Positions 20,624 to 54,432 of a DNA stretch of 55,758 bases are shown here, piece after piece. A program made the translations under genes and the position numbers. Positions within the stretch are counted from its first letter, which is position 1, and each line of letters begins with the position of its first letter. The DNA comes from Oscillospiraceae bacterium. GTDB taxonomy: Bacteria; Bacillota; Clostridia; Oscillospirales; Oscillospiraceae. The DNA lies in NCBI GenBank assembly GCA_015067975.1, contig SVLK01000009.1, positions 1 to 55,758 of the forward strand. Reading direction: 5' to 3'. The notes under the pieces were generated by a model that worked only from the letters and a program-made list of their open reading frames with translations, did not search any database and was not told the origin of the DNA.

Positions 20624-22255
20624 TTATTGTGGCGTGTCCTCAAAGCCCTCCGGCACATAGCCGCGCTTGATTTTCCGTCTATACAGCACGCCTACCGTCA
20701 CGCCCACGATCACCACTGCGCCGCCCATGACGCCCACTAAGATCCACGTGACCTGTCCGATATCCATGCCCCACGAGGACTTGCGCCCCGTGATCACATA
20801 GTCGACTCCCGATTCCTGATCCACGCCGTAGTCGCCTTTCAGCGCTTCGGGGATCAGCGGCGCAGTTTCCACATTGGGCACATTGATGCCCACGATGTAT
20901 TCCGTGCCGCGCTCCACCTGTTCCAGATAGAAGTGGGCCCGTCCCGCATCGTCCACCAGTACCTGTTGGTGACAGGTGTAGACCTTATCTGCCGGTGCGA
21001 AGAAGGCCGCCTTGCTGCGGGCAAACGCCGTGCCCAGCGGCAGCTCCACTTCCGTTTTGAAATCAATGTCGCTCTCAAACACCACGATGAACGCCGTGGC
21101 ACCGCCTAAAAGCTCCGTCTGCGCCGCATCGGACTTGTCCAGCATGCGCAGCGTGTAGTTCAGCGTGTACTTCTTTTCGTTTCCGCCCGAAAGCAGGTCG
21201 CTGCCGTCGATGTGCCACACGGCGCCCTGTTCCGTCTGGATCGTCAGCGTCACATTCTGCTTGGAAAACCCATTCAGCTGCTCGTTGGTCAGCGCCGCGT
21301 CGCCTTTCACCTGTACCTGCACTTGCGTCTGGTTCACGCCGATCTGCTGCTGCACCTCGTCCCAGCCGCTGCTGTTCTCCAGCACGGCATCGATGGTGGT
21401 CTTGCCGCCGGTGGTCTCGGTGGTGATGGCGCTGTTGCCGCTGTCCACATAGCTGTGGGTGGTGTCGCTGCCATCCTCGCCTCGCTCGGTCTCTTCATGG
21501 CGGATCTCGCCTTCCAGCCCCGGGATGGGTCTCATGGGCGGTGCGGTCACAGCGCTGCCCGCAAAGGCCTCCACGCCCGTTTCCACAATGCTCTCGCCCA
21601 GTACCACGTCGCCTAAGTTCGTGCAGCCGTAAAAGGTCCATACCGGCAATTCCGTGATCTGCGCCAATACCATGGCGCTGCGCAGCGCCGTACAGTGGGC
21701 AAATACCGCCGTTCCCATCTCGTTCACCGAGGCAGGCACCGTTACGCTCTGCAGGCTTTCACAGCAGTAGAAGGCCTGCCGCCCCAGTGACTTCACGCTC
21801 TCGGGTAAGCGCAGCACCGCCAGCTTTTCGCAGCGCTCAAAGGCGCTCTCGCCGATGGTGGTCACACCGCTGCCCAGCGTCAGTGTTTTCAGATTGCGGC
21901 ACTGGAAGAAAGCGTAGTCACCGACGGTTTTCACCGAACCGGCCACCGTGGCCGAGGTGATCTTGTCCATGTCGAAAAAGGCCAGATCACCGATGGACTG
22001 CACGCCCTCTTCCACGCGAACTACCGCCACGTCCAATCCGTTCCACGGGGCGAGATCGTGCTCGCCGTAGTCGCGCATAGCGCCGCGGCCGGAGATGGTC
22101 AGCACGCTCTGTGCCACTTCCCACCTGACACCGTCACCACACTCACCGGAGGTTTCGGCAGCATAGGCGCGGGGTGCGGCGCAAAGCGCCAGCACCACCG
22201 CCGCCACCAAGGCCAGCAAAACAGTATTTACTTTTCGTAAAATACGCTCATTCAT
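20624..22255 (-). CDS. Surface protein with BspA-type leucine-rich repeats, 543 aa
   Basis: Last gene of the 16-gene operon. A signal peptide (residues 1-32) is followed by LRR_5/BspA-type repeats at about 65-215 (pattern SVKTVGDYAFFQCRNLKTLTL). A Thr/Asp-rich linker and a beta-rich region (~290-480) follow, then a transmembrane helix near 505-527 and a basic tail RRKIKRGYVPEG. It is therefore anchored in the cell membrane with repeats outside. BspA-type repeats in other bacteria bind host or partner proteins. As part of the fibre operon it could be an anchor, adhesin or assembly factor. It starts 22 bases after the 1654-residue protein gene. Confidence 0.8.
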   Translation of the reverse strand: MNERILRKVNTVLLALVAAVVLALCAAPRAYAAETSGECGDGVRWEVAQSVLTISGRGAMRDYGEHDLAPWNGLDVAVVRVEEGVQSIGDLAFFDMDKITSATVAGSVKTVGDYAFFQCRNLKTLTLGSGVTTIGESAFERCEKLAVLRLPESVKSLGRQAFYCCESLQSVTVPASVNEMGTAVFAHCTALRSAMVLAQITELPVWTFYGCTNLGDVVLGESIVETGVEAFAGSAVTAPPMRPIPGLEGEIRHEETERGEDGSDTTHSYVDSGNSAITTETTGGKTTIDAVLENSSGWDEVQQQIGVNQTQVQVQVKGDAALTNEQLNGFSKQNVTLTIQTEQGAVWHIDGSDLLSGGNEKKYTLNYTLRMLDKSDAAQTELLGGATAFIVVFESDIDFKTEVELPLGTAFARSKAAFFAPADKVYTCHQQVLVDDAGRAHFYLEQVERGTEYIVGINVPNVETAPLIPEALKGDYGVDQESGVDYVITGRKSSWGMDIGQVTWILVGVMGGAVVIVGVTVGVLYRRKIKRGYVPEGFEDTPQ

Positions 22256-22276
22256 GCTGTTTCTCCAAAAAACGGA

Positions 22277-25200
22277 TCAATAGTCGTTGTGGATCACAAT
22301 GTTGTTGTTCATGCGGATACTGTACTCTACGCCATTGTAAGTCAGTGTCAAATGGGTTGCGGTCAGCGTACCTGCAGGGGTCTTGGGGTCATTGCCGTTA
22401 TATCCATTACCTCTATAATTATTGTTAATATCTATATAACCAATATACCGCTTGCAGGTTTTTGTCGTAAACTTTCCTTCCCCATCCAAGCTCCACACAT
22501 AAGAATCGGTTTTGTCTGCAGAATTTGTCCAGCCCGACTGAATTGTGTTGTTGTCAAGGGTAAACTTAGTATACATCCGCACATCGCCGTCGCCGGCCGC
22601 CACAAATACCAATTTCGCAGAGGAAGCTTTTCCCATATCGCTCAGTGTCAATGTCGCACTGGGAATACTGGCGCCATTATTCGACTCATAGTTGTGATAT
22701 TTGTAGTCCGGGTCTCCATAACGACCGTACGCACCCCATTTTGCTCCTCCATCATAGTTCACATCATCTGTATGACTACATTTAAAATATACCCATGCCT
22801 CTTTACTATTCGTAGAAATCCGCGTAACTAGATTCCGGTTAGTTGCCTCTGTTGCCGAAACATGATTTGCATTGGTGGTCATTACATAATACTTATATCC
22901 ACCAAAGCCACTACTATCTACCCAAGATTTGGTCTCATCGATACTATCCGTCATATTATCTCCCGACTTCAAGTCAATCGAATACGCAACATTCGGGCTT
23001 GGCGTCACTTCCGTGATCGTCACATTAGGCACATTCCAAGTAATACGCACATCATTGGCTCGGAAACCACCGGCACTGGTATCAAAGCTGCTGACACTAT
23101 AAGATTCCTCGCCGATTTTAACCGTAAACACACACTTATACGTACCCTGCAGCTGGAAGTTCAGCGTTCCCACAGTAAAGGTCTTACCATCGGTGGTAGG
23201 CAAAACATCGCTGCCGAAGGAACGATTAGGTAATGTATCGTATGCCACACTGGGCGTAAAGCCCATATCCGCCTCCAGATGCGTATACGTCAGACCCACC
23301 GATACATCGGGAATAGCTCTGCCCAGATAGTCCGTCACGGTGATGGTCATGTTGTCAAAGGTAACGGGCTCCATGAATCCTACCGTGTATGCACCATTGG
23401 GATCTGCACTGGCTTCGAACTTCACCGTCGTGAAGAACTTGGTGGTAATATCATCGGCCACCACCTTGTCGGTGAAGTCCAGCCAGCCGGTGCCGCCTTC
23501 GCCTATCACACCGTCGTAGAACACGCCCTCACTCTGGCCGGGTTCCTTGTAGAACACGCCGGACACCAGCATGCCCGTCACCGTCCATGTGCCGTCGGTG
23601 GGGAGCACGGCGCGGTAGATATAGGTATCATCTTCCTCATTGGGAATCGTCTGCAGCGTATGCACACCGGCATAGGTCCCCTCGGGAATGTCGGCAGGCA
23701 ACCGCCCGTCATAGGTAAACAGGTGTTTGGTAGGCTCCACACCGTCGTCGGTATGGGTCACTTCCAGACCTACAGAGGCAGAGGGAGATTTGCCCAGTAT
23801 CACATCCAGATAACGCTCGTCAACTCCGCCGATTTCCTCGAAAGAGGCTTTGTAGGTCTCGGAATTCTTACCCACATATTCAATGGGTTCCGGCGAGATC
23901 GCGCGGATGCCGGGAGCAGAGGTGGCGCGGTTGATGATGCTGCCATCCACCACCACCTGCTGGAAGTTGTACGCGCCGGGTTTGGACAGCGTAAACTCGC
24001 CCTCGAAGCGGCGGCTGTCCGCGTTCCAGGTCATATTATCCGCTGTCAGGCGGTTCAGCTGCGAAGAACCGATGCCGTAATAGAGGTCCACATCGCTCAG
24101 CGAAGTCAATATATTGTCCTTGTCATCGCTGATGATGCAGGAAACCTCCATGAACAGCGGTTCGCTGCCGCTATACATCATGGTATACCCTTCCGCGGTC
24201 TGCTGCAGCGCAAGGCCGTCGTCCGCATCGCTGTAGAGTTCCTCCAGCAGATCTTCCATCTCGCCTTCAATGCGCGCGATTTCCGTTTCTTTCTGCTCGG
24301 CTGTCAGGGTAGTGCTGGCCTGTACTTCCGCCAGTTCCTCTTCCAGCTCCTTATACGCCGCGTTCACAGGCGCAGACACGAACACCTGCGCATTCAGTCC
24401 CAGCTGCAGCGTCAGCGTCTTATACTGACTTGCCGGCAGCGGCACATACACGCCGTCAATGATCATATAAGTCATCTTGTAGGTGCCGGAGGTGGTGAAC
24501 ATACCGGTGGCTTCCCAGCCGCTATTGGTACGGTTGAAGTTCACTGTTACGTTCTGTCCCTCGTCGTGGACAAATACGCCCTGTACCGTCTTGGGCACCG
24601 TACCGGAAACGGAAACGCTCATCTTGGTGCTGTAATACGGATCTGCACTCATGTATGCAAAGCTGTTGCCGTTCCAATCCTCGCAGGTCACACCGGTCAC
24701 CGTAGTGCCCGGCACGGTGATCGTCAGATCTTTGATCTGTTCGGTGCTGAGGGCATAGTCCACGCCGTCGATCTGAATACTGCGCAGCTGGTAAGTACCG
24801 GCGCCGTTCAGCGTCACAGCAGCCGTCCAGCCGTTGGCGCCCTTGACGAAATCAAAGGTAGGCTGCTTGGCGCCCTGCGTGGCGGAAATGTAAGAAACAA
24901 GGTTGCCGCGGATGGTCTTGGGCGTTCTGCCCGTTACACCCAGCGTCAGGTTGACCACCGGCTTGTTGTTTGCATCGTAAGCATCAAATTCCGTCCGGTC
25001 TGCGGAAATGGTGATGTTATAGAAGGACTCCTTCAACGGCTTATCGTCCATAGAGGCAACATCCTCGCTGGTGCCAAACTGGATGTTCAGTTGGCCGCGG
25101 ATGGAGTTGGCGGCCAGCACCTCGCTGTTGGTCAGGCGCGAACCGTCCATATACACCACTGCCGTGATGCGCTCGGCCTTGTTCTGTTCCATCTCCATGA

Positions 25201-27241
25201 TGTGATAGGAGTTGGTCAGTTTGTATTTGATACTGCCGTCCTCGTTATAGACGATGTTGCCGTTTTCATCCAATTCCGGCTCATCAGTCTCAATGGTCTT
25301 GGCGCGCAGCTTCAGCGGGACCAGCACACGGCCGCCGTCCTCAAAGGCATTGGCTGTATCCATATCGGCCTGTGCCAGCAGCACCGCCTCTTCTTTTCCT
25401 TCGGCATTCTTTTCCGTGCCGATAAAGGCCACGCACATGGCCTGCAGCAGTTCCAGGCTCTGCTCCTGGTCCTCCGGCGTTTCGGGATAGAATACATAGC
25501 AGCTGCCGGAACCCTGCGTCGTGCTGGTGCCCAGCACCGGCAGGCCGGGGTCATCCTCTTCCCATACGCGGTTGGCGCCCTTGTAGCCCACCACGATGGT
25601 CTGCGTCACGGGATTGCCCTCGTCATCGGTGACTACATTTCCTTCGGCATCGGTCAGGTTCACGGTGCGCGTCACCAGTTCGCCCTCCAGCGTCAGCAGC
25701 GACGACGGTGCGTTGGTGCGCACCCAGAAGTCAATGACCATGCCGTAGGTGTCGGTGGCCGTCAGCGTGGTGCTACTGGCGCCGCCGCTGGCTTTGTCTT
25801 TCGCCAGATTGACAGCTTCCACCAGTTGGTAAGGTGCGTTGTTCTGAGCCGCGGTGGTTACATTGGCCGTCACCGTAACCGTAATTAATACTTTGACCGC
25901 AGCCTGTACGCCGTTCACCGTCAGGTTCGTACCCAGCAGCTGGTCTACATCCACCAGCAAACCGGAGTGCACGATACATTCCTTCGTGCCGCCGCCGGTC
26001 AAGCTGCCAATGTTGCTGGAACTGATTCCCTGTGTCTGGATACCGTCGATGGTGGTGGTATAGATATTGGCCATCACGTTTACCGGATCGCGCAAAGCCT
26101 CCCAACCCACCTTGGTACCGGAAGTGGTGTACTGCTTATACATCTCTTCAATGGAGTTGAAGGACGGCACAAACTTCTGCCGGGCGTTGACGTACATCTT
26201 CAGCGCCGTGATGGTATAGTCGTTGTTCGCATTCTGGAAACCTTCACGCAGCAGCTGATCGTACACCGCGTTGCCGCTGAGCGTGATCTGTCGGTTGGTG
26301 GTGCTGTTGTTATCGGTAGCTGTGCCGCTGTGCAACTGCTCCAGCGTGAAAGGTCGATAAGTCAAATCGTTGGACGCATTATCGTCGCTGTTCACCTTGT
26401 CACAGTAGAGATAGTGCTGCAGATTGGCCACAGATAATACCGTCTGGCCCATTTGATCCAGCACGAGACCGAACTCCTTCATCATGTTGTACAGCGGCGT
26501 AATATACGCGCTGCAGTTCTGGTCCGTATCTTCGATGCGATAGGTGATGTAGACACCCGCCAGCTTCGTAATGGAGTTGATGTAATCTTTGTTGCCGTAA
26601 AGGGACTGGAAATCCAGCACGCTCTTGGCCAGATTTCTGCTCACCGTATTGCTCAGCGCCAGCAGATCCGCGTTGGCGCCGGTAGTATCTGCCTTGACCG
26701 AGGAAATGGCTCGCACGCCATACTGCGTTCCGCCGCCGGCAGGCACCACAAAGGCGCCGCCCGCTCCTTCGATCTGGCTCTTCTGATAGTTGGTAAAGGC
26801 GAAGTCCAGCGCAATATCATCAATACGTCCGTCTGCGCCGTAGGTCACGGCGTACAGGGGCGAATCCTCCAGGGAGCCGGAGTTCAGTACCGCAGGGCGC
26901 AGCGTGATATCCTCCAGACCGTAGCCGGGGTCGGAAAGATTGATCAGGTTACCCCAGGTCAGGTTGCTCAGCGTCACCGCCTGGCCACCATCGCCTACCG
27001 CCGTGGGGGCGGGCTCCAGACCGTCTGTGTCAGACAGGGCGATTTCCAGATTGCCGTTGGTGGTCACCGTGGTGGCCAGGCCGGACACCTCCGGTGCCTT
27101 GGACAGTGTGATCCACGCAAAGGAGGCCGAAGCCAGCATGGTCACAGACATGACCAGCAGCAATGCCACTGCCATCACACGCTCTTTCATGTGAGGCAGA
27201 GCCTTCTTATATGCCTGAATTCTTCTTTGTGTTTCTGTCAT
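22277..27241 (-). CDS. Giant SipW-type surface protein, paralogue of the major subunit, 1654 aa
   Basis: An N-terminal helix (20-40) ends in ASFAWITLSKAPEVSG, the same cleavage region as TTYAWFTLSTAPEVQG in the 773-residue protein at 38772. The next ~110 residues also match (TTV..NGNLEIAL, WGNLINLSD..YGL, TYGADGRI), so the two are paralogues. Residues ~750-1260 hold about four Ig-like modules, each ending like GTYQLRSIQIDG. A Glu-rich helical segment lies near 965. It has no C-terminal anchor or sorting signal. GAGGAGGT precedes the ATG. This size suggests a tip or long-stalk subunit of a fibre, which is inferred. Confidence 0.8.
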   Translation of the reverse strand: MTETQRRIQAYKKALPHMKERVMAVALLLVMSVTMLASASFAWITLSKAPEVSGLATTVTTNGNLEIALSDTDGLEPAPTAVGDGGQAVTLSNLTWGNLINLSDPGYGLEDITLRPAVLNSGSLEDSPLYAVTYGADGRIDDIALDFAFTNYQKSQIEGAGGAFVVPAGGGTQYGVRAISSVKADTTGANADLLALSNTVSRNLAKSVLDFQSLYGNKDYINSITKLAGVYITYRIEDTDQNCSAYITPLYNMMKEFGLVLDQMGQTVLSVANLQHYLYCDKVNSDDNASNDLTYRPFTLEQLHSGTATDNNSTTNRQITLSGNAVYDQLLREGFQNANNDYTITALKMYVNARQKFVPSFNSIEEMYKQYTTSGTKVGWEALRDPVNVMANIYTTTIDGIQTQGISSSNIGSLTGGGTKECIVHSGLLVDVDQLLGTNLTVNGVQAAVKVLITVTVTANVTTAAQNNAPYQLVEAVNLAKDKASGGASSTTLTATDTYGMVIDFWVRTNAPSSLLTLEGELVTRTVNLTDAEGNVVTDDEGNPVTQTIVVGYKGANRVWEEDDPGLPVLGTSTTQGSGSCYVFYPETPEDQEQSLELLQAMCVAFIGTEKNAEGKEEAVLLAQADMDTANAFEDGGRVLVPLKLRAKTIETDEPELDENGNIVYNEDGSIKYKLTNSYHIMEMEQNKAERITAVVYMDGSRLTNSEVLAANSIRGQLNIQFGTSEDVASMDDKPLKESFYNITISADRTEFDAYDANNKPVVNLTLGVTGRTPKTIRGNLVSYISATQGAKQPTFDFVKGANGWTAAVTLNGAGTYQLRSIQIDGVDYALSTEQIKDLTITVPGTTVTGVTCEDWNGNSFAYMSADPYYSTKMSVSVSGTVPKTVQGVFVHDEGQNVTVNFNRTNSGWEATGMFTTSGTYKMTYMIIDGVYVPLPASQYKTLTLQLGLNAQVFVSAPVNAAYKELEEELAEVQASTTLTAEQKETEIARIEGEMEDLLEELYSDADDGLALQQTAEGYTMMYSGSEPLFMEVSCIISDDKDNILTSLSDVDLYYGIGSSQLNRLTADNMTWNADSRRFEGEFTLSKPGAYNFQQVVVDGSIINRATSAPGIRAISPEPIEYVGKNSETYKASFEEIGGVDERYLDVILGKSPSASVGLEVTHTDDGVEPTKHLFTYDGRLPADIPEGTYAGVHTLQTIPNEEDDTYIYRAVLPTDGTWTVTGMLVSGVFYKEPGQSEGVFYDGVIGEGGTGWLDFTDKVVADDITTKFFTTVKFEASADPNGAYTVGFMEPVTFDNMTITVTDYLGRAIPDVSVGLTYTHLEADMGFTPSVAYDTLPNRSFGSDVLPTTDGKTFTVGTLNFQLQGTYKCVFTVKIGEESYSVSSFDTSAGGFRANDVRITWNVPNVTITEVTPSPNVAYSIDLKSGDNMTDSIDETKSWVDSSGFGGYKYYVMTTNANHVSATEATNRNLVTRISTNSKEAWVYFKCSHTDDVNYDGGAKWGAYGRYGDPDYKYHNYESNNGASIPSATLTLSDMGKASSAKLVFVAAGDGDVRMYTKFTLDNNTIQSGWTNSADKTDSYVWSLDGEGKFTTKTCKRYIGYIDINNNYRGNGYNGNDPKTPAGTLTATHLTLTYNGVEYSIRMNNNIVIHNDY

Positions 27242-27259
27242 CGAAGCCTACCTCCTCTG

Positions 27260-28480
27260 TCAGTTTGTGCGCGCTGCGCCGTAGTGGATGAAAAAGGGGA
27301 TTTCCTTCTCCGAAAGGACGTGTCCGTTCTGCAATCTCTCCAGCGTCAGCAGATAGCTGCCGGCCGGTGCCATACCAGCCTCGTTGGAAATAGAAAGCAC
27401 CGTTTTTGTTTGTTCGTCCACGTTCTTCTCCTGTACATCCACCGTCAGGAAAAACTGATTCTCATCTTCCGTATAAGCAACACCGTCAGCGGTTCGTATC
27501 AACCGCGTCAGTTTCCACGAAAGGCCTGTGGTGTCCCTCGAGATGGAATATTGCAGCAGACCGCTGCCGCAAATTACCGACGATTCCGCCGCACTGGTCT
27601 GGACCGTCAATGCTTCTCGGTCGGCAAGCACACAGATCTCACCATGTCCGGTTATCGCGCCTTCTCGCAACGCAAGTGCATGCAGCGTAATTGCTTCTTC
27701 CTGTACGCTTTCTGACAAATCCAGCACTAAATCTATGGTCTCATTGGCCGATACGGGCAAATGAAGCTCCATGGCATCGCCCAACATCACGGTTTCATCG
27801 CGGAAAGTACAGCGTGTTCCCTCCGGGAAGCTGCTGCCGTTCATCTGCAGTACCAGCGTGTCTGCCGCTGCCGGCATCGCGGCAGCGAGCGTCAGCGCTT
27901 CTGTCCATGCGAAACTGTCCGGTGCGGTAATTGTCATCTGCTCTGCCGCCCCCGTGGGAGTTGCAGCGCTCTGCGTACCGGCAGGCAAAAGCGTCACCCG
28001 ATATTCTGCCCACAGCGATTCTGCCGCCGCGCCGGCAGCGCTCCATCCTACATGAATGGTTACTGTCTGGGGCTGCGCCAAAGCCAATGCGATTTCCGTC
28101 GGCGTCAGCGTCAAAAGCGCAGGATAACCGGGCGCAGTTATCTGACAGGTTTCTGCATCCAGCGCCGCAGCCAAATATTCCGGTTGCTCAACGCTGCAGC
28201 GAAGCACTCCTTCTGCCATTCCGGTCTGCGTTTGCAGCGTGATCGTCTCTTTACGCGGCGCAGCACTGTCCATCGGCCAGTCGCCGAGCAAAACAGTCTG
28301 TCCGCCGGCGACCAAATAGTCAGCCGTTACTTCCGCCTTTTGCGGTGTGTACACGGCGCTCCAATTGTCGTTTGTCTCATAGCGGGCATAGGACGGTGCT
28401 GCCGCCAAAGCTGCACTCAGCAGTAATGCCATACAGCCCAGCACTGCCGCAGCTTTTTTCATTGCTCTTTGTACTTTCAC
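27260..28480 (-). CDS. SipW-type exported protein, 406 aa
   Basis: The start is GTG 28480, eight bases after AAAGGGGG; an internal ATG at 28462 is the alternative. A signal segment (residues ~7-30) ends PSYARYETND. The mature part is beta-rich and very poor in Lys and Cys, with no anchor. The SYARY cleavage region is shared with the neighbouring 206-residue protein and resembles that of SipW substrates. It is probably a minor fibre component or chaperone-like exported protein. No family is recognised in the mature part. Confidence 0.7.
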   Translation of the reverse strand: MKVQRAMKKAAAVLGCMALLLSAALAAAPSYARYETNDNWSAVYTPQKAEVTADYLVAGGQTVLLGDWPMDSAAPRKETITLQTQTGMAEGVLRCSVEQPEYLAAALDAETCQITAPGYPALLTLTPTEIALALAQPQTVTIHVGWSAAGAAAESLWAEYRVTLLPAGTQSAATPTGAAEQMTITAPDSFAWTEALTLAAAMPAAADTLVLQMNGSSFPEGTRCTFRDETVMLGDAMELHLPVSANETIDLVLDLSESVQEEAITLHALALREGAITGHGEICVLADREALTVQTSAAESSVICGSGLLQYSISRDTTGLSWKLTRLIRTADGVAYTEDENQFFLTVDVQEKNVDEQTKTVLSISNEAGMAPAGSYLLTLERLQNGHVLSEKEIPFFIHYGAARTN

Positions 28481-28499
28481 ATCCTACGCCCCCTTTCAT

Positions 28500-29120
28500 T
28501 TAGTCTTGATACGGCACATCCAACCGCAATTGCAGCAGAGTCGGGTCGGTTGTCCCGCTAATGGTTAAAGTAAAGTTCTGATAATGCAGTGCTCCGCCCG
28601 GCAGGGCAAAACTTTGCTCCTTTTCATTCTCATCAAAGAAGCGGTAAATCCAGCCATCGCCAAATTGACTGTGCAGTATCGATCCGGCAGGGATTTCCTC
28701 TGCTGCGCCGCGCAGCTGCACCGTCTGGCCGTCTTTTTCATACGACAGCTGCACCGTGATGCTCTCCGGATCATTGATGTTCAGTCCGGCCAGCAGCTGC
28801 AGCGTGTATGTCTGGTCCTGCGGCGCGTATGCCGAATGGCTACGCCCGTTGCTGACACTGAACTCCACCCTGGCATCGGTTTCCCCACTCTGCCAGTTTG
28901 GATTTTCCGGCCAGCTGCCGGCATCCAGCCACGACTGCGTCACAACACCGCCCAGAATCAGCCCAGTTTCTTCCTCTGCAGTCCAGGAGTAGTCCACCGG
29001 TGCAAAGTCCTGTTGGTAGCGGGCATAGGACACCCCCACCATCAGCACAAGGCATGCGCTCAGGCAGATGGCCAGCAGGCCTGTCATCACACGATGGAAG
29101 CTATGGTGCCTTTCGCGCAT
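28500..29120 (-). CDS. Small SipW-type exported protein, 206 aa
   Basis: A signal segment (residues ~10-32) ends VSYARYQQD. The mature region of about 170 residues is a probable beta-sandwich rich in Gln, Asp and Tyr. AAAGGAG precedes the ATG. It lies 20 bases before the 406-residue gene, and both share the SYARY motif, so the two probably act together. Camelysin/TasA relatives have this size and signal type; the match in the mature part is not strong enough to name. Confidence 0.7.
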   Translation of the reverse strand: MRERHHSFHRVMTGLLAICLSACLVLMVGVSYARYQQDFAPVDYSWTAEEETGLILGGVVTQSWLDAGSWPENPNWQSGETDARVEFSVSNGRSHSAYAPQDQTYTLQLLAGLNINDPESITVQLSYEKDGQTVQLRGAAEEIPAGSILHSQFGDGWIYRFFDENEKEQSFALPGGALHYQNFTLTISGTTDPTLLQLRLDVPYQD

Positions 29121-29137
29121 GGCGTCTCCTTTCTTTT

Positions 29138-44981: not shown

Positions 44982-44997
44982 GACTTACTCCCCTTTA

Positions 44998-47900
44998 TTA
45001 ACCCTTCAGGCCGGTAACATGCTGGGCACGTCCCGTGAACTTAATAGCATTCTTCAGTGCATCGTTGGACTCAATTCTGCCGTTCTGGTTGTTGTCGGCT
45101 GCCAGCAGCTGCAGTCCGGTCAGCTCCTGCTTCTTGACATAGTGCAGGCTCATGCGCAGAGAGTCGTTGGACTCAACGCGACCGTTGCTGTTGGTATCGC
45201 CCATCACAACGATGCTGTAAGTAATGCTGGCTTTCTGACCACTAGCGTTTTCTGCCGTCAGAGTCACAGTAGAACCGGTGCAGATCAACACCTCGTTGTT
45301 GAAACTGGCCGTCAGCGCCACCGTGATTTCAGGCTTACTGTCGCTATCGTTAGTCATCTGTGCGCTCAACGCTGCCTTCAGTTCCTCCACCGTGATGCCG
45401 TTCTTGTGCAGATCCAGGTACAGACGCTTGTTGTCGGTATCGATCTTGCTGCCGTAAACCAGTGCGCTGGTACCGGAGATCACAGGCTTGGTGATGGTGG
45501 GTGCCACGTCCAGAGGACTGCCGTAGGTAAAGGTAGCCTCGAAAGCCGTACCCTTGCTGGACTCGCCGCAGACAGAGCAGCTCTTGTAATACACAGCAGG
45601 GCTGGTAGCCGTAGCCGCACTCTTGAGGTAGTCTGCGTGCACCGTTTCAGCGGTGAACTTGTGGGCCAACTTGCCAATCACTGTCTGGGCCTGACTAATC
45701 TCATTGCTGCAGGCTGCGTCACTGTAATACTTGCCGCAGGCAGCGCAGTGCCAGTAGGCAATGTTGCCAGTCTCGGTGCAGCTTGCACCCTTGGCAGAAA
45801 CTGCCGTTACATTTTCATGCTTGATCACCACAACTGCCGTCACGCCAGTGTCAACGGTAACTTCCACTGCCGTGCAGGTGCCTGCACCGTTCACGAAGCA
45901 GACTTTCATTTCCTGTGCACTTACGCCGGCGGGCAGAGCGTCCATGTTGACGCTGTCACCCAACTTACTCAGAGTAATGCGCAAGCTGGTCTGATCCACC
46001 CGCAATCTTTCTGCGTTGACAATAGCAATCTGCTTTCCAGCAACCGTAATGGCACCATTCAGCGCAGCCTCATTACTGTAAACACTGACCGTACCGCTGG
46101 TCTGAATGCTGTCGATAGCCGACTGCAGTGTCAGGTAATAGCTATTGCCCACCTGATAGGGATACTTTGCCAAGGAATAGATATTGTTGGCATTCAGAAC
46201 ATATCTGTCTGCCAGACCGGAGATCACATAAGCAGAGATATCCGCATCCGCGATGATCGTTGCCGCATTCATCCCCAGAATGATCTTGCTCTGGAACGTG
46301 ATCTTATCCGCACCGACAATGGTCACTGTAACACCGGTCAGTGTAACTTGCTGGGCCAAGGTGACCGGACGGTTCACGGTGATCGTGCTGCCGTCTGTGT
46401 TGGTAGCCTTGGTGAAGGCTTCCATCAGGTCATCGCCACTGTAGAGCAGCGTTCCACCACGAGTTACATGGACAGCGTTTTCCAATACCGTGTAAGTATA
46501 GGTGCCGTTTGCTTCCTCCTGACACACTACCTTGTATCTGGCAGGATCTGCCGCCACCACCGCAGCGGCAATGTCCGCATCAGCAGTCACAACACCGTCA
46601 GCACCAAGCTTGATCTTATAACTGCCAAAATCGATATCTTCTGCACCCTCAATACTGATGCCAACATTAACGGTTACGTCAGCATTCAGGGACATGTCTC
46701 TGTTCACCTGCAGGACACTACCTGCTTCGGCTGCCGCCAAAGCTGCGGCCAAGTCCTCGCCGCTGTACAGCAGTTCGTCTGTACCGTTCACATGGACAGA
46801 ATTTTCACGCAGGCGGTACACATAGCCGCCGTTCTCCTGCGTACAGGTGATGGTATATCTTTCAGCATCTGCCGCGATCACAACACCTTCCGGCAGGGCC
46901 GTATCCGTCACCAGTTGTGCCGTCCCATCAAGCGTGATGGTACTTTCACCAAAGTCCACCTCCCTGGCGTTGACCAGTTCCAATGCTTTGTCGCTGATCA
47001 CTACGTCGCTTTCCAGTGCCATCTCTTCGGTTACTGTGATCTTACTGTTATCCACAGCAGCCTGCATAGCCGCAGCCAGATCGTCACCGCTATACAGCAG
47101 TTCACCATTGGGTCCAACCACATGCACCTGATTTTCCACTGCAGCATAGGCATAACCACCGGCAATCTCCTTGCAGGAAATCACATACTTATCCGCTTCA
47201 ACAGCAACAACCATGTCGGCAGGCAGTTTTGCATCTGTCGTCAATGTCTTGCCGGTCTCCAGCTTGATCTTTTTGCTGCCAGCTGCGATCCGGTTGGCGT
47301 GCACGATGCTCATGTCATGATCCAGCGTCACATCGTTCTTCAGCTCTGTCTGTGCCAGATTGATGTATACGGTGCAATTTGCATGTGCCGCAGACGTGTG
47401 TTTCAGCGCTTCTTCCAGATCCTCATATTCCTTCACCGCTCCATTGCAGGCAACATTGATTCTGGCAATATCGGTAAACAGGTAGAGTTTCAAGGACAGA
47501 TCTGTCACATTGATGGACGCGTCCATAGTATAGTCACCCGGCAGGTTTGCAGACTTGGTATAAGCCTTAGACTTGCTGATGCCATAGTAATTGACGTCCA
47601 TTTCCTCCTGCGTTGCCGCATTAGTCTTCTTCTCTGTCTTCTTCACGTCCCCCAAAGTCTTGCCATTCAGCAGTTCCTCAGTTCCCGTGATATCCAGACG
47701 AGTCAGCACACGGCCCACTGCTTCAATCACAGCGTAGTAGCCCTTCTCAGTGTCATCGATTTCAGACTTGATTGCCTGTTTCGTTGCTGCCTTCAGCGGC
47801 AGAGTTTCCACCATAGCAGCGAAGTTTCCGTTGCTGCGCAGCGCCATGCACAAATCTTCCACCGAGATCGTATTGAACACGGCCTCCATCTCAGCCAGGC

Positions 47901-50900
47901 TATTCGAACCATAGTATTCCTCTACGGCCGCTACCAACTGATTCTTCAGTGCATCATCCGCGCTGTTAGCAAGGATCACTGCCATCATGATTACATAGTT
48001 GGCATCGTGTGAGAAATCTGCCACCAGGCTACCGTTCACCTCGCCCACCACAGGGAGAGACGTGCCGCTCAGCTGCAGATCCTGCATTGCCAGCTGCAGT
48101 TCCACATCAATAGTGTCTGCAAATGCGCCCAGGACGGTAGAAATAGCATCCTTCTGCGCACCGTCTACGATAATGCTGATCTTACCGGTCTGCGCGTTGG
48201 TAGCAATACCGCCAATACCGGCAGTAATGTAGTCTTCCTCTGTACGAGAGATCTGGAAGTCCCAGGGAGCTACAGAGAACTCATAACCGGCCACAGCTGT
48301 TCCGTTGTCGATGGCATCTTTCAGTGCAGCAAAATCTGTCAGATCTGCAGTAAACAGATTCACCAAATCTGCCATGTCTGCCGCAGAGATGAAACGCAAG
48401 CCTTCGTTGATCAATTTCTCCATCCGGTCGCTGCCGCTGACTAGATCAACAGCATCGTCAACGGAGATATCGAACACCTTGTTGCCTTCTACGTAGAAGT
48501 TGGCGCTGTTGTAATAGGTAAGTGCCACATCCAGCACGGCATCCAGTGCAATCAGGGCCAGACTCTTCTTGTTGGCCGCCTTGCGCAGTTCAGCCGCAGA
48601 AGCGTTTACAGTGATCACGATCTCATCATCGTAACCGGCGCCTTCAGCGGCTGCCGTTTTGCTCACCGTGTACAGCGTGCTGCTGACCAAACCTGTCTGC
48701 ACATCCTGTGCAAAGCCATCTTTCAAATAGGCCATCACATCACAATTGGGATAATGGCCGCCGTTGATCATCACATTACTGCCGGAAACAGCTCCGGTAA
48801 TCGTGCCGGCATTATTGCTGCCAACACGACTATCGGTGATGATCAGCGTGCCGTTGGCTACAATGTCACCGGTAATGGTGTAGCCATTCAGATCCAACAC
48901 CGTGGTGGTGTTAAAGGTCAGTTTTTCCCCATCAGGAACCGCTACGTCACGCAGCAGGGTTACGGAAGCATAACCGGACAAGGAAGGTGCATTAGCCACC
49001 AGATTTTCTTCCAGACCGGCCAGCTTTTTGACCTCAGCCTTTTGAATATCAAACACCAATGCATCATAGGAGGTGTTTATATTGGTCAGCTTTGCCGATG
49101 CTGTAAAGGTAATGCCTTCCGTTCCATATTCCGCGATCATTTTTGCCAAGCTTAAGGTTCCGGCTGGCAAATTCATTCCCGCTGCCGCCTGGTCTACCAG
49201 TTTCTGCAGCTGCGTGTCGATCACATTGTCAATGTTGATGACAGGATCGATGTACCAGCCGTCCTGCTCTTCATGCATGCCATCCTTGGCAGCATTGTAA
49301 TAGCCAACGATCTTCTTATAGGTATCTTCGTATTTGGACAAATCTCGTTCGATACTGGTACCGAACTTTTCAACCGTATTTACATAGGTTTCCAGCGTTA
49401 CATCAGGATCTTCCAGAACGCCGTCCATCAGTTCCATGATCCAGCCAAATGCCGTCACAGCATTCATCTGCTCAAAATGACGGATATCCACTTCGCCCTT
49501 AACCAGCAACAGCGCCAGATACGCCTCATATGCCAACTCAGGCAAGGTCACGTTCAGCTGATAGCGGCCATCCTCACATGCAAATTGTACATACTGTTTC
49601 ACCTTGTCGATGCCATTACGTACCTTGGTCAGCTCATCGGGTGCTCCGTTGATAGTGAGGTACAGCTTCACCGGCACATTGTTTTCATCGTCTTCGCCGA
49701 AATACAGCGGCAGTTCCAGCACCTTACCGCCCAAAGCAGTCAGCGTCTCTCCTTCAGCGCCCACTAATACAGTGTTGCCGGCTAAGTTCAAATGGTTAAT
49801 GGAACCATCAGCGTTGATAACGCCCAGAACAGTGTCGCTGCCAATACCGCTGTCGGCAATGCCATTCACCAGTGTCTGCAGATAATACTTGCCTCCGGCA
49901 AAGAAGGGCTCGATCATAGGAACGATCTGGGTAGCATCTCCCTCAAGCAGGGAAACAAGCTGCTCGCCCGTCTTCATGCCGATATAGTTGTACTGATTGC
50001 CCAGCAGCAGACCCATTACAAAGCTGGTCAGATCCTCCTTCGCTGTATCGGGGTTGATCGGCGCAACGATAGCGTAGTTGCCTTCCGCATCCTTGCTCAG
50101 CGTTGCAGCATCACCCATCTCGTTCACCAGCGAAGCCATTTTTTCATCTGCGATGTTCACCAGCTTGCGGGTAATGGTATATGTACCGGTAGCAAACAGT
50201 GCGTCGAACTTGTCGGCAGAGAAAGTATACTTTCCTGCGCGTACAGTCTCACCATCAATCGTATAGTCATAGCGATGTCCGTCCTGATTGCAGGCAGGCA
50301 GCTGAACAGTGCGATTGTCGTAAGTAATGGTCTGGTCAGCTTCACCCTCGATTTTCACCGTATAGGTCTTAGCCGTCCAAGCAATGCTCGCTGTGGTATC
50401 GGTGCCGATAGCGGTCCCTACTTCAGGCAGCGCACCGCTGACCACATAATGGGTTTTGTCAACGCCCAGCGTCGTCTCCATGGCAGTCAGATAACCGGCC
50501 AGCTTATTGTAATCCTCCTGGCTGAGGGCACTACCCTTGACCACGGTAATTGCCTCGCTGGTCAATGTTTGGCCTTTATAAGACACAGCTACGTTCACAC
50601 TGCTGTAGTTGGCGCCGGTGCGGCTCATTGTCTCCGTCCAGGTCAGCGGAGCATTCACAGAAGAAACTGGTGCTTCGATACTCTCCAGCGCGTCTACCAA
50701 TACATTCAGAGACGCAGCCCCGGTGTTGATGGCTTTATGAGGCGCACGCAGTTCCAGATTGTTCAGCGTCCCGCTGATCTCCAGCAGATCAGCATAGGTC
50801 TTTCCGCCGGTAACACTCGGATCCTGCGAGCTCCACAGTGTTTCAAACTTGGGATCGGCCAACAAGGCGTTCATCGCCTCGCACATAATGTTAATCTCAC

Positions 50901-53900
50901 TGATGAACTTCGAACTATTGTTGGTATTGTTTTCATCCTGCCCATAATAGAAAGCCATGCCGCCATTTTTATACTGGTCAGCCAAATTGGCCAACATCAG
51001 CATTCCACCACCGGCATTGATGCGCTCAATAATAGTATCTACAGCCCCTGCAGCTGCAGATGTATCCAGCTGTCCCTTAGCAAGCTGCAGTGTACCGATC
51101 ATTTCTGCATCCAAAACTTTCAACTCAGATGCGGAGGCAGCCAACTCATCCAGCATGCGCTTCTGCTCCGTATACTCTTCATGCAGTACATAGGGCAGCA
51201 GCAACGCTGTCTCCAGTTCATTCTGTGTCACACCCAGATCGCTGTGGGTAAACGTCAGTGTATAGTAAATATCCACCTTGGTCCACAGACCCTGGATGGT
51301 ACCTTCGTGACTGCCGTTTTTAGCGATCAGTGCAACATCTTCCGTACCGCCACCGTTCAGCGTGGCTTTGGCAGAGGTTGCCACCCAAACCAAGTTACCT
51401 AGGCCCGCAGGATAGTCGGGCACCGTAATGGTGTTGCCTTCTACAACTGCCAGATCGCCGGGAACACGCAGCAGCACCTGCCGCCCCTTATGCAGCGCAC
51501 CGCTGTTCAGCAGTGCTTCCACGGCAGTTTCCACGGTGTGGGTCTTGGTCAGCAAATCTTCCAAGTGGAAAGGAGTCATCGCATCGCCCTCAGTACGGGT
51601 GATGGTCATGTCACTCAGCACGCGAATCGCATTGCCCTGATATAGTGTCTGACTGTCGGAACCCGTGGTCACGGTGTAGACATAGCCCTTAGCGATATCC
51701 TGGTGAGGCCGCAGAACATACAATGCACCATAATCCTTGGCGATACGCTGCTCTGCTCCCTCTTCCCAAGTCTGCGTCACATACATTTTCTTGGGCTCAT
51801 AAGTGATCTCGTAAGTCACATCTTCCGTCAGCGTCTCGGGCAGAGCAGAAACGCCACGCTGATAGTTCTCAGCACCGACATTATAATAGGGATCAAATGT
51901 GGCCAGACCTGTAGCCTCCACATCCAGTTCAGCCAGTTTCTCCAGCAAAGTTTCCTTGGTAGTTCCTTCCGTTACAGAGATGATCTCGGAAGTCCAGGAC
52001 AGATCAAGGGGATTATTATTGCTGTCAACGACACTGGCAACAACCTTCACCGTCACATTTACGGTGCCCACATTGCTGCGAACGGTAGCCTTTGTCACGT
52101 CCAGTGCGTCCTTAGCGGTACGCAGTTCAGTCTTGCCAACTGCAGCTGCCACTTTTTCGTTCAGCACTGCATAATCCACGTTAGCTGCCAAAATGTCCTG
52201 ATTCTTGTCCAGATACCAGGCACCATTCTTTGTGCGCAGATAGGTATTTTCCAAGGCCTCACAGAAGTCTTCCATCAAACCGGGAAGCTTGTTAATCACC
52301 TTCTGCATGTCCTTCATGGCAACTACCTTATCAGGAAGTTCCAGCAGTGCTTCCTTAGCGGCGGTAATGTCGCCTCTGGCATTTGTGATCGTCGTTTGGG
52401 CGTTTGCGATCTCCTGCTTGGCAGGCTCCAGCTGATTTTCGGCTGTATTCATCTGATCCTGTGCATTCTGCAGCTTGGTCTTATAACCGGCGGCCTCTTC
52501 CAGAGCATCTTCGGCTGCCTCCAGACCGTCATTTCCATTAGGGCCATTTAAGGCAGTGTCTACCGCACCAATGGCCGCATCCAGTTGCTCCAGATTCGAT
52601 ATATTATCGTCAATCTGAACGGTGGCTTCCTCAATTGCCTCCAAAGCATCCTTTGCTTCGTTCAGCGTGGTAACTGCATTTGCCAATTCAGGAAAACTTC
52701 TGACCAAATCCTGCATCTTGACAATCTCAGGTTCAAGCTCATCAGAACTTTTCACATTTGCATTAAAATAGTCCGCAGTTCCCATATATAGGCGTACACT
52801 TGCGTTTGCTTCTGCAAGCTCGTCATTGATGGTATCCAGAAGTTCCGTATACTTCTTTGTCAACTCATCTTTCAGCTCTGCTACATCATCAGCGTTTTTG
52901 ATGGTAACCGTCTGCTCATTGTCGGCGGCTACCTTTTCAATGGCGTCATAAACCTTGTCGGCCTGCGCCTGCAGTTTCCCTTTCAGATCGCGTACATCCT
53001 GCACCGAATCAACGTGCTCGATCTTATCTCCCTCATCCAGCTGTTCGTTGATCTCATCGATCTTCTCGTTCATCTCAGTGTAAGCTTCTGCCATTTTTTC
53101 CTCGGCATCAGCCACGGTGTTGTCGATCTCGTTGATCACATCACCAATTCTGCTGTTCAAACCGGTCAAGTCACTATTCAGCCCATCCAGCTCCGTACCC
53201 AGTGTATTAAGTGCAGTCGCGACCGTGCCTAAAGCGCTGTCGATCTCAGTCAGCGCCGTCTGTGCATCCATGCCCGCAGTATTGACCGTAACGGTACTGA
53301 CAGGCTGGATCGTGCCGATTGCAGCAATCGCTTCCTGACCTTCGGGGAGCTGGTTATTCAGATCCGCAATCTTAGTGTTCAGTTCTTCAATCTTGCTGTT
53401 CAGCTCAGCGATTTTGTTGTTCAGCGTTCCAATCGCAGAATTCAGTTCTCCAACCTTGTCATTGATCGCACTCACAATCGTTGCATCCGCGTCTTCGCAT
53501 GCATCGATCAGATCCTGGATCTGCTCACCAATGGTGCCAACTCCGTTAGGATCTGTGGCCATCGCTAGAACATTTTCATAGCTGTCAACGATCGCGTCAA
53601 ACAGGCTCTCGCGGTCATCTGTTGTCAGCCACTTCAACGTAGTCTGGTTGGTATAGCTGCTCAGCGGCAGTTTCCCATTGACCATGCTGTTCACCAGCGC
53701 GGCAGATGCGTTCTTCGTCTCTTCGCCGGTGATCACCAACGTCGTATCCACACCGGTAAGATAGTCACCAAAGGCACCGGGCACGTCCAGCTCATATCCG
53801 CCATTTGCCATTTGCGCAATCAGCTCAATAGCAGCCATATTGCCCGTTTCAGCGTTGGACAGTTCCAGACCGCTTAGAAGTGTCGTAATAGCTTCTGCCT

Positions 53901-54432
53901 TTAATGCCAACAACGCTTCATAGTCTTCTGTCAAATAATAGGCTGCATTGAGCAGAGCACCATGCTCCACTGTCCACTGCAGCTGATACGTGACATCGAT
54001 GTTGTACGCTTCATAATCGCCGGTGAACATGCCAACATAGACGCTGCCGCTCTTGCTCAGCGCCACCGTCTCTTTTACATCTTCACCAACCGACACAGCA
54101 AAGCTTACGGGAATCCAAAGATTACCATCTTCATCCTCGTAAATTTTCGCCGTCACAGTCTTGTCTGCGCTGGTAACGCTTACAAGACTGTCGCTGTCCT
54201 CCTGCGTCGGCGCATGATAGACAATCGTGTTGTCTTTCAGTACACCGGCTTGAAGAAGGGTCTTTTCCTCAGCGCTGAGATCTGCGTAATTCTTTACGAT
54301 CAGGTCTGTCAGCGTTGTTGTCGGCTCTGTTTCCTCTGCATGGGCGTGCACCACAGGTATCATGGACAATACCATGGTAAACACCAGCAGCATAGAAACA
54401 GCGCGTTTGAGGAACTGCTTGCTACGCTTCAT
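44998..54432 (-). CDS. Giant dockerin-bearing surface protein, 3144 aa
   Basis: First gene of the operon. The start chosen is ATG 54432 with AAGGAA upstream; GTG 54444 is in frame but overlaps that site. Signal peptide 1-33; coiled coil at ~330-740 (LNNKIAELNSKIEELNTKIA); very long middle region of helices and beta domains. About four tandem repeats of ~75 residues lie at ~2430-2820 (each with LLYSGDDLAAA or LLYSGEDLAAA). A CxxC-containing unit (YWHCAACGKYY, CSVCGE) follows near 2900-2960. The C-terminus (~3077-3141) is a type I dockerin with two calcium loops (DTNSNGRVESND, DNNQNGRIESND). Dockerins dock onto cohesins, so it is likely held by a partner protein. Confidence 0.85.
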   Translation of the reverse strand: MKRSKQFLKRAVSMLLVFTMVLSMIPVVHAHAEETEPTTTLTDLIVKNYADLSAEEKTLLQAGVLKDNTIVYHAPTQEDSDSLVSVTSADKTVTAKIYEDEDGNLWIPVSFAVSVGEDVKETVALSKSGSVYVGMFTGDYEAYNIDVTYQLQWTVEHGALLNAAYYLTEDYEALLALKAEAITTLLSGLELSNAETGNMAAIELIAQMANGGYELDVPGAFGDYLTGVDTTLVITGEETKNASAALVNSMVNGKLPLSSYTNQTTLKWLTTDDRESLFDAIVDSYENVLAMATDPNGVGTIGEQIQDLIDACEDADATIVSAINDKVGELNSAIGTLNNKIAELNSKIEELNTKIADLNNQLPEGQEAIAAIGTIQPVSTVTVNTAGMDAQTALTEIDSALGTVATALNTLGTELDGLNSDLTGLNSRIGDVINEIDNTVADAEEKMAEAYTEMNEKIDEINEQLDEGDKIEHVDSVQDVRDLKGKLQAQADKVYDAIEKVAADNEQTVTIKNADDVAELKDELTKKYTELLDTINDELAEANASVRLYMGTADYFNANVKSSDELEPEIVKMQDLVRSFPELANAVTTLNEAKDALEAIEEATVQIDDNISNLEQLDAAIGAVDTALNGPNGNDGLEAAEDALEEAAGYKTKLQNAQDQMNTAENQLEPAKQEIANAQTTITNARGDITAAKEALLELPDKVVAMKDMQKVINKLPGLMEDFCEALENTYLRTKNGAWYLDKNQDILAANVDYAVLNEKVAAAVGKTELRTAKDALDVTKATVRSNVGTVNVTVKVVASVVDSNNNPLDLSWTSEIISVTEGTTKETLLEKLAELDVEATGLATFDPYYNVGAENYQRGVSALPETLTEDVTYEITYEPKKMYVTQTWEEGAEQRIAKDYGALYVLRPHQDIAKGYVYTVTTGSDSQTLYQGNAIRVLSDMTITRTEGDAMTPFHLEDLLTKTHTVETAVEALLNSGALHKGRQVLLRVPGDLAVVEGNTITVPDYPAGLGNLVWVATSAKATLNGGGTEDVALIAKNGSHEGTIQGLWTKVDIYYTLTFTHSDLGVTQNELETALLLPYVLHEEYTEQKRMLDELAASASELKVLDAEMIGTLQLAKGQLDTSAAAGAVDTIIERINAGGGMLMLANLADQYKNGGMAFYYGQDENNTNNSSKFISEINIMCEAMNALLADPKFETLWSSQDPSVTGGKTYADLLEISGTLNNLELRAPHKAINTGAASLNVLVDALESIEAPVSSVNAPLTWTETMSRTGANYSSVNVAVSYKGQTLTSEAITVVKGSALSQEDYNKLAGYLTAMETTLGVDKTHYVVSGALPEVGTAIGTDTTASIAWTAKTYTVKIEGEADQTITYDNRTVQLPACNQDGHRYDYTIDGETVRAGKYTFSADKFDALFATGTYTITRKLVNIADEKMASLVNEMGDAATLSKDAEGNYAIVAPINPDTAKEDLTSFVMGLLLGNQYNYIGMKTGEQLVSLLEGDATQIVPMIEPFFAGGKYYLQTLVNGIADSGIGSDTVLGVINADGSINHLNLAGNTVLVGAEGETLTALGGKVLELPLYFGEDDENNVPVKLYLTINGAPDELTKVRNGIDKVKQYVQFACEDGRYQLNVTLPELAYEAYLALLLVKGEVDIRHFEQMNAVTAFGWIMELMDGVLEDPDVTLETYVNTVEKFGTSIERDLSKYEDTYKKIVGYYNAAKDGMHEEQDGWYIDPVINIDNVIDTQLQKLVDQAAAGMNLPAGTLSLAKMIAEYGTEGITFTASAKLTNINTSYDALVFDIQKAEVKKLAGLEENLVANAPSLSGYASVTLLRDVAVPDGEKLTFNTTTVLDLNGYTITGDIVANGTLIITDSRVGSNNAGTITGAVSGSNVMINGGHYPNCDVMAYLKDGFAQDVQTGLVSSTLYTVSKTAAAEGAGYDDEIVITVNASAAELRKAANKKSLALIALDAVLDVALTYYNSANFYVEGNKVFDISVDDAVDLVSGSDRMEKLINEGLRFISAADMADLVNLFTADLTDFAALKDAIDNGTAVAGYEFSVAPWDFQISRTEEDYITAGIGGIATNAQTGKISIIVDGAQKDAISTVLGAFADTIDVELQLAMQDLQLSGTSLPVVGEVNGSLVADFSHDANYVIMMAVILANSADDALKNQLVAAVEEYYGSNSLAEMEAVFNTISVEDLCMALRSNGNFAAMVETLPLKAATKQAIKSEIDDTEKGYYAVIEAVGRVLTRLDITGTEELLNGKTLGDVKKTEKKTNAATQEEMDVNYYGISKSKAYTKSANLPGDYTMDASINVTDLSLKLYLFTDIARINVACNGAVKEYEDLEEALKHTSAAHANCTVYINLAQTELKNDVTLDHDMSIVHANRIAAGSKKIKLETGKTLTTDAKLPADMVVAVEADKYVISCKEIAGGYAYAAVENQVHVVGPNGELLYSGDDLAAAMQAAVDNSKITVTEEMALESDVVISDKALELVNAREVDFGESTITLDGTAQLVTDTALPEGVVIAADAERYTITCTQENGGYVYRLRENSVHVNGTDELLYSGEDLAAALAAAEAGSVLQVNRDMSLNADVTVNVGISIEGAEDIDFGSYKIKLGADGVVTADADIAAAVVAADPARYKVVCQEEANGTYTYTVLENAVHVTRGGTLLYSGDDLMEAFTKATNTDGSTITVNRPVTLAQQVTLTGVTVTIVGADKITFQSKIILGMNAATIIADADISAYVISGLADRYVLNANNIYSLAKYPYQVGNSYYLTLQSAIDSIQTSGTVSVYSNEAALNGAITVAGKQIAIVNAERLRVDQTSLRITLSKLGDSVNMDALPAGVSAQEMKVCFVNGAGTCTAVEVTVDTGVTAVVVIKHENVTAVSAKGASCTETGNIAYWHCAACGKYYSDAACSNEISQAQTVIGKLAHKFTAETVHADYLKSAATATSPAVYYKSCSVCGESSKGTAFEATFTYGSPLDVAPTITKPVISGTSALVYGSKIDTDNKRLYLDLHKNGITVEELKAALSAQMTNDSDSKPEITVALTASFNNEVLICTGSTVTLTAENASGQKASITYSIVVMGDTNSNGRVESNDSLRMSLHYVKKQELTGLQLLAADNNQNGRIESNDALKNAIKFTGRAQHVTGLKG

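Follow-up and report, generated by a model that had tools for sequence, protein, structure and literature searches.

A putative elaborated CoCoPALM-type gene cluster that may couple an McrB-like NTPase to SipW-type processing of exported proteins

A cluster of sixteen collinear genes in the genome of a gut-dwelling Oscillospiraceae bacterium appears to encode an elaborated CoCoPALM-type system, in which an NTPase would be coupled to SipW-type processing of exported subunits and to their assembly, likely into a fiber or matrix built on a membrane protein of the same cluster (MEM). We put the probability of this reading at roughly 0.6. The cluster lies in the window, by which we mean the whole 55,758-nucleotide stretch of DNA that was analyzed; this is contig C6 of a 1.87-Mb draft genome (49 contigs, 84% complete).

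Gene content and setting of the cluster

The sixteen open reading frames occupy positions 20624 to 54444 of the minus strand, with intergenic gaps of -47 to +210 bases, in keeping with the original prediction of one-strand genes with short gaps or overlaps. The first, BIG (44998-54444), encodes a secreted coiled-coil and repeat protein with a C-terminal dockerin-like repeat (7.2e-5, 23.4 bits against a cut-off of 22.9), and a homologue of it is also the first gene of the cluster in four other genomes. The dockerin had been predicted correctly; the predicted length of 3,144 residues had not, the protein being 3,148 amino acids long when read from the GTG at 54444. After BIG come FIV (43896-44981), a secreted FIVAR-domain protein (PF07554, 2.2e-7) with a C-terminal membrane helix at residues 319 to 337; HDEAL (42336-43793), a protein with HD_5 and EAL matches in which the HD motif reads HQLG and its aspartate is lost; and MEM (41224-42330), a one-helix membrane protein with a subunit-like outside domain (WLEGxDxxC) and no cleavage motif at the helix. 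Two SipW-type substrates follow, the 773-residue SUB1 (38772-41093) and SUB2 (37569-38561), and then the SipW/archaeal-type Ser/His signal peptidase SP1 (36675-37517), which has two helices and a charged C-terminal tail. The McrB-like AAA+ NTPase, AAA (35014-36624), carries a membrane helix at residues 58 to 76, a charged helix and then the NTPase domain (GISGTGK, LDEMN and NNDD motifs). Its neighbor D2357 (33098-34987) is a DUF2357 protein, similar to the N terminus of McrC, with a long, charged, coiled-coil-like region. The remaining genes encode a third SipW-type substrate, SUB3 (31790-33076); a second SipW-type Ser/His signal peptidase, SP2 (31041-31793); the exported or membrane protein BHEL (29138-31087); the exported proteins SY1 (28500-29120), which is small, and SY2 (27260-28480); the 1,654-residue SipW-type protein SUB4 (22277-27241), similar to SUB1; and LRR (20624-22255), with BspA-type leucine-rich repeats (PF13306, 3.5e-43) and a C-terminal membrane helix.

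Most of the predicted gene identities were borne out by these assignments, namely the two Ser/His peptidases, the membrane-helix AAA+ protein, the DUF2357-like protein, the degenerate HD-GYP/EAL protein and the leucine-rich repeat protein. The SipW-type cleavage regions, read by eye, agree with the prediction of at least four TYAWF-type proteins and two SYARY proteins: TYAWF is present in SUB1 and SUB3, the variants SYTWF, SFAWI and TTAWQ in SUB2, SUB4 and BHEL, respectively, and SYARY in SY1 and SY2. The end genes BIG, FIV and LRR have ordinary signal peptides of the A-x-A type, also judged by eye. The beta-helix label given to BHEL found no backing, as a Pfam search of the window proteins returned no domain for it.

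The same strand carries 23S and 5S rRNA genes upstream of the cluster (55391-55758), with tandem terminator-like hairpins after the 5S gene at 55217-55244 and 55362-55389 whose 12-bp stems are identical. The best promoter-like site between these and BIG is at 54650-54678 on the minus strand (TTGAAA-17-TATAAT, with TG before the second hexamer); taken as a whole, promoter-like sites upstream of the cluster were not above chance (17 found, 15.1 expected from shuffles), and the promoter and terminator scans of the window gave results near chance. The next called gene downstream is on the opposite strand, and an HD_3/YfbR-like protein (18631-19194; 2.1e-37) adjoins the cluster there. Elsewhere in the window, a ClpX-like AAA protein (7648-9659, minus strand; 7.8e-70, under the equivalog cut-off) adjoins a protein that resembles an RstR-type repressor (2e-14, likewise short of the cut-off).

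Conservation of the core and its component genes

A scan of GTDB species genomes returned at least 569 stretches with relatives of the NTPase, and we analyzed the best 80 of these loci, a sample that covers the closer relatives. Judging by record titles, most of the 80 are from Clostridia living in animal guts. Genes in the related loci were called with codon weighting, except in one genome (G118), where unweighted ORF calls were used. At the level of the order, 23 of 197 genomes matched AAA at an E value of ≤0.001, some of them only through a sister clade that has no peptidases, or more weakly. A class-level profile search at ≤1e-60 found 15 of 291 genomes, some via the NTPase domain only, and at the same threshold the window's own genome was the single hit among 398 at phylum level. 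Presence is patchy: within the family of the window, the 14 other genomes listed have no AAA match.

Within the 80 loci, a core of MEM, substrate, peptidase, AAA+ protein and DUF2357 protein is near-universal. In 78 loci D2357 is the first or second gene after AAA (no gene was called after AAA in the other two), and a peptidase is present in 75. Where at least four genes are available on each side (56 loci), D2357 was found in 56, a peptidase in 55, MEM in 53 and a gene with a SipW motif in 51; six of these loci lack one or more core features, as called. Across the 80 loci, a SipW motif occurs in 128 of 757 genes close to AAA and in none of 185 more distant ones, a linkage that exceeds chance. 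One condition set to refute the original prediction was that the ATPase and DUF2357-like genes would prove unlinked to SipW-type substrates in other genomes; the related loci show the linkage, and for the peptidases as well.

The large cluster type itself extends beyond the window. In 40-kb stretches from four genomes belonging to four other families (G038, G192, G131 and G103), tblastn matched 14, 14, 13 and 15 of the 16 genes, respectively, in the same order and on the same strand; the SUB3 match in G131 falls inside SUB1, so that 12 is the safer count there. These arrangements bear on whether the sixteen genes form two or more transcription units, that is, a core from MEM to SP2 with accessory surface genes merely adjoining it. 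Three larger gaps, of 102, 130 and 210 bases, would suit such a division, as would the ordinary signal peptides of the end genes and the more distant loci, which hold the core without most accessory genes. Against it, between 12 and 15 of the genes keep their order and strand across four families, and our scan found no promoter-like or terminator-like site on the minus strand in any of the three gaps. We consider separate units improbable. The preserved order favors the single unit of the original prediction, whose product would be a fiber or sheath.

The NTPase resembles McrB. The AAA_5 match of AAA falls under its cut-off (6.1e-4, 20.2 bits; cut-off, 22). A profile of 15 relatives searched against the PDB had E. 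coli McrB as its sole match at ≤0.01 (best E value, 1.4e-5). Among relatives longer than 480 residues in the 80 loci, the Walker A motif GISGTGK is present in 78 of 78, LDEMN in 77 of 78 and NNDDST in 78 of 78, and all 78 have a predicted transmembrane helix, which is followed in the alignment by a charged stretch. HMMER aligns the NNDDST region with E. coli McrB without gaps, so that an aspartate in NxxD register is present as well.

The full-length D2357 protein had no Pfam match at E ≤1, and its first 390 residues matched DUF2357 with 27.3 bits against a cut-off of 23.3; the family was also matched in 29 of 46 aligned relatives (E ≤0.1). A stretch in which at least half of 60 residues are E, K, R or Q occurs in 64 of 76 D2357 proteins. 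An AlphaFold2 model of the first 390 residues (pLDDT, 80.7; pTM, 0.56) had no Foldseek match at E ≤0.001, McrC (6ut6_G) being a weak match at rank 27 (E value, 0.49; TM-score, 0.18), and when a DUF2357 profile was searched against the PDB, McrC was absent and the matches returned all resembled coiled coils.

An McrB-like protein with a DUF2357 partner could signify an McrBC-derived defense system, like CoCoNuT or the PADLOC candidate PDC-M26, with the surface genes nearby by chance. AAA does match the PDC-M26A model at 4.6e-44, and CoCoPALMs have been placed as CoCoNuT-like in the passage that describes them (PMC11090510). However, family profile searches of the window proteins found no nuclease, HEPN or methylase family reaching cut-off in the cluster, and the partners that recur from locus to locus are peptidases and exported proteins. 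SipW-linked and surface-protein-linked AAA proteins alike are hit by the PDC-M26A model, with E values from 1.9e-39 to 1.3e-46 (35014-36624 in the window, 2414-3754 in L068, 12218-13618 in L070 and 10001-11611 in L105). A defense function is therefore very improbable here, and defense calls resting on PDC-M26A alone may be wrong. The matches listed for D2357, which cover 25 of 81 families, include no PD-(D/E)xK or other nuclease, and a single-protein scan of viral contigs found no AAA relative. The surface-protein-linked proteins belong to a sister AAA clade (L067, L068 and L070) of AAA-DUF2357(-AAA) groups without signal peptidases, L067 being a lone AAA gene; these adjoin transglutaminase, AgI/II-C2 and F5/8C surface proteins and are perhaps a second non-defense McrBC-like system.

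Both window peptidases score above the TIGR02228 cut-off. Their matches to NF046067, a SipW model (2.4e-26 and 4.3e-25), stay under its equivalog cut-off, which is set for Bacillus SipW. SP2 is a paralogue of SP1 (28% identity, 3.5e-16), and peptidase genes flank the AAA gene on both sides in only 21 of the 56 loci with full flanks, which counts against two peptidases as a general feature. Serine and histidine are kept in 106 of 107 aligned peptidases. The C-terminal tails, with median lengths of 64 residues in the 57 peptidases encoded upstream of AAA and 51.5 in the 50 encoded downstream, should be cytoplasmic, judging from the inferred topology of two helices with the active site outside. 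In three of the 80 loci (L135, L142 and L145), D2357 and a SipW-type peptidase form one open reading frame; that of L135, from Ruminococcus albus KH2T6, is 991 residues long and matches the D2357 profile at 2.5e-123 and the peptidase profile at 1.3e-52. No other observation speaks as strongly as this fusion for joint action of the McrC-like protein and the peptidase.

The exported proteins resemble one another. N-terminal regions are similar among SUB1, SUB2, SUB3 and SUB4, and a C-terminal stretch is common to MEM, SUB2 and SUB3, with WLEGxDxxC in SUB2 and MEM. Up to 45 residues from the start of the helix, a SipW-type motif is absent from all 65 MEM proteins proper (profile E value, <1e-25; window included) and present in 39 of 60 weaker subunit-like matches; a chance TYAWL occurs away from the helix in two MEM proteins. 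MEM thus looks like an uncleaved subunit paralogue kept in the membrane, and we infer that it is the base of a polymer.

Whether the subunits share the TasA fold was approached by structure and by profile. The AlphaFold2 model of SUB2 (mean pLDDT, 91.5) is mostly beta after an N-terminal helix. Foldseek found no PDB structure matching it at E ≤0.001 and ranked 7pnb, an archaeal thread subunit, third (E value, 0.039; probability, 0.47; TM-score, 0.20), and SUB2 and MEM profiles searched against the PDB gave nothing below an E value of 0.05. Comparison of a subunit profile with the TasA family (18 proteins used, from 24 loci) yielded a probability of 85 with the signal regions and 5.9 without them. 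Peptidase_M73 (PF12389) had no match among the window proteins or in the window's own genome, and none of 34 genomes with the PF12389 family had an AAA protein at ≤1e-60, in a search whose positive control was run only separately.

These comparisons do not establish a TasA fold, and they leave some room for regulated surface display without any fiber, in which the NTPase complex would gate or clear the peptidases (for example, by extracting signal-peptide remnants) and the substrates would be nonpolymerizing adhesins or a wall coat. The cluster is indeed rich in large adhesin-like proteins (BIG, LRR and FIV), a gene of at least 850 codons lies within eight genes of AAA in 42 of the 80 loci, and the peptidase-free sister clade adjoins surface proteins. 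However, SUB1 to SUB4 and MEM form a related set, through shared N-terminal regions or the WLEGxDxxC end, as expected of subunits that pack together, and a subunit relative kept in the membrane suggests a base. We regard display alone as possible but rather unlikely, and favor assembly of a fiber or matrix on MEM.

The HD/EAL slot upstream of MEM

HDEAL matches HD_5 at 1.2e-12 and EAL at 2e-8. With the HD aspartate replaced by glutamine and the EAL positions diverged, it is probably a noncatalytic regulator. Neither GGDEF nor a second EAL match was found in the draft genome (84% complete), and Rfam searches of the window and of 7 of the 80 related loci gave no c-di-GMP riboswitch above threshold. 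The c-di-GMP-type receptor of the original prediction was accordingly abandoned for the window strain, given the lost aspartate, the diverged EAL and the missing GGDEF. The homologues that occupy this slot elsewhere may well be c-di-GMP proteins. Many of the related genomes are rich in GGDEF.

The position of these proteins is constant. An HD or EAL profile matched 43 genes in the 80 loci, and every one of them sits directly upstream of MEM on the same strand, at gaps of -61 to 178 bases; within eight genes of AAA, such matches number 43 among 464 upstream genes versus 0 among 426 downstream genes. Sequences from the window and eight of the loci went into the profiles, and 35 of the 43 matches fall in loci outside that set. 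Pfam confirmed HD_5 in three of three Lachnospiraceae-type loci and EAL in two of two Ruminococcus loci tried. Where at least four upstream genes are available (65 loci), the slot holds HD plus EAL in 15, HD alone in 14, EAL alone in 12 and neither in 24. A GGDEF-EAL protein is encoded downstream of the core in G043, G044, G073 and G003, with a GGDEF match similarly placed in G019. A Bacilli locus (L146) has a gene before MEM (6720-7676) with a marginal EAL match (0.045), which may be a further degenerate form.

Catalytic motifs and second-messenger genes vary with the form of the slot protein. In separate HD proteins the HD and GYP motifs are intact in 15 of 15, and glutamine replaces the aspartate in 19 of 21 fused HD-EAL proteins, window included (18 HQ and one SQ; 18 of 20 once L085 and G103, which are the same locus, are merged). 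GGDEF is present in 5 of 5 HD-type genomes (11 to 22 matches), 6 of 6 EAL-type genomes (3 to 42) and 5 of 5 GGDEF-EAL-type genomes (3 to 13, counting the cluster's own gene), and absent from 11 of 14 fused-type genomes, the other three (G038, L081 and L091) having one or two; these are draft genomes, which may miss genes. L091, one of the two whose fused protein keeps the aspartate, is thus among those with GGDEF. Ten further genomes have no slot gene or a cut contig; six are GGDEF-free (G118, G144, G020, G155, L115 and L117), and the others have 20 (L096), 5 (L119), 5 (L075) and 3 (L146) matches.

A tree of 98 NTPase rows, made by a quick method, places the window in a clade of 21 rows. Its sister group (SH-aLRT, 96) comprises 18 rows, mainly from Lachnospiraceae, and includes the HD forms. 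Within the window clade, L075, L086 and L088 have no slot gene and L080 has EAL only, the contigs of L086, L088 and L080 being cut at the slot. A fused form in L154 is placed elsewhere in the tree, so the HD-EAL fusion may have arisen twice.

Proposed mechanism and comparison with known systems

We propose that SipW-type Ser/His peptidases cut exported SUB1 to SUB4, and probably BHEL, SY1 and SY2 too, and that the cut subunits would assemble on the cell surface, most likely as a fiber or matrix built on MEM. The membrane-tethered McrB-like NTPase would sit on the cytoplasmic side, be activated by its DUF2357 partner and be coupled to the peptidase through coiled coils, or in R. albus through direct gene fusion. 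It could then drive or gate processing and assembly by acting on the peptidase-subunit complex, releasing subunits or assembling them on MEM. The HD/EAL protein would act on MEM from the cytoplasm by binding its cytoplasmic side; in the window lineage it has lost catalytic residues and, seemingly, c-di-GMP itself, and would be retained as a scaffold. A bolder version, possible but rather unlikely, makes this an McrBC-family motor redirected from DNA to the cell surface: a tethered McrB-like ring would turn or pull a DUF2357 stalk joined to the SipW-type peptidase, covalently in R. albus, NTP hydrolysis would drive subunit release and fiber growth from MEM, and HD/EAL would gate MEM from the inside in the manner of LapD, some lineages keeping the machine after c-di-GMP loss.

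If the proposal holds, an NTP-driven membrane machine coupled to a processing peptidase would give one-membrane bacteria a different route to a surface polymer and McrBC-type motors a non-defense use. The passage from intact HD-GYP to a degenerate HD-EAL fusion in mostly GGDEF-free genomes offers a natural experiment on second-messenger loss. Carriers with a strain, not a MAG, in the record title make the system testable: Ruminococcus albus KH2T6, Anaerosporobacter faecicola KCTC 15857 and Lachnospiraceae strains 28-4 and 10-1.

The HD/EAL slot recalls LapD-type inside-out control by c-di-GMP, in which a degenerate c-di-GMP enzyme and a membrane protein act on surface adhesion. It differs in that the window HD/EAL stands apart as a protein of its own, has no predicted helix and comes from a draft genome with no GGDEF match.

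Like the tapA-sipW-tasA operon of Bacillus subtilis, whose SipW cuts the signal peptides of TasA and TapA, the cluster combines a SipW-type peptidase with exported substrates (PMC9674648), and the signal regions of the TasA family resemble those of the window (AWF). TasA-type fibers are described as forming through donor-strand exchange with the help of an accessory protein, and the parts of that account available to us name no NTPase, DUF2357 or HD/EAL gene for the operon (PMC9674648). The window, in contrast, has two peptidases, at least five SipW-type proteins and no PF12389 match. The TasA-CalY-CapP system of Bacillus cereus builds surface filaments of TasA-type subunits independently of sortase and with the aid of an accessory protein, which the proposed fiber system would resemble; the portion of that report consulted names no NTPase and describes CapP as chaperone-like (PMC13082335).

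With McrBC and CoCoNuT type IV restriction systems the cluster shares an McrB-like AAA+ protein and a DUF2357 activator, the DUF2357 domain of McrC being known to stimulate the McrB GTPase; it differs by a membrane anchor, exported partners and no detected nuclease, as far as the sections consulted describe those systems (PMC11090510). The original prediction had called the cluster unlike any fiber system known, and the idea of a wholly unnamed system was dropped once the core was found to fit the description of CoCoPALMs, named in one passage of a 2024 eLife paper that defers the clade to a later publication (PMC11090510). Our literature searches found no account of them beyond that paper and its preprint (PMC10542128). 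The match, which is by description, covers an McrB-like NTPase with an NxD motif followed by an aspartate, an N-terminal membrane helix with a coiled coil (in the window, a charged stretch), an McrC/DUF2357 partner, usually with coiled coils, and signal-peptidase genes alongside. The published description also has the N-terminal part of the NTPase as a homologue of FtsB. The passage names no substrates, SipW/TasA link, membrane paralogue, HD/EAL partner or peptidase fusion (PMC11090510). Relative to it, the SipW-type substrates, MEM as a putative uncleaved paralogue, the D2357-peptidase fusion, the HD/EAL slot upstream of MEM and the loss of the HD aspartate in a draft genome with no GGDEF match appear to be new, and the window system is best described, from its genes, as a probable elaborated CoCoPALM variant.
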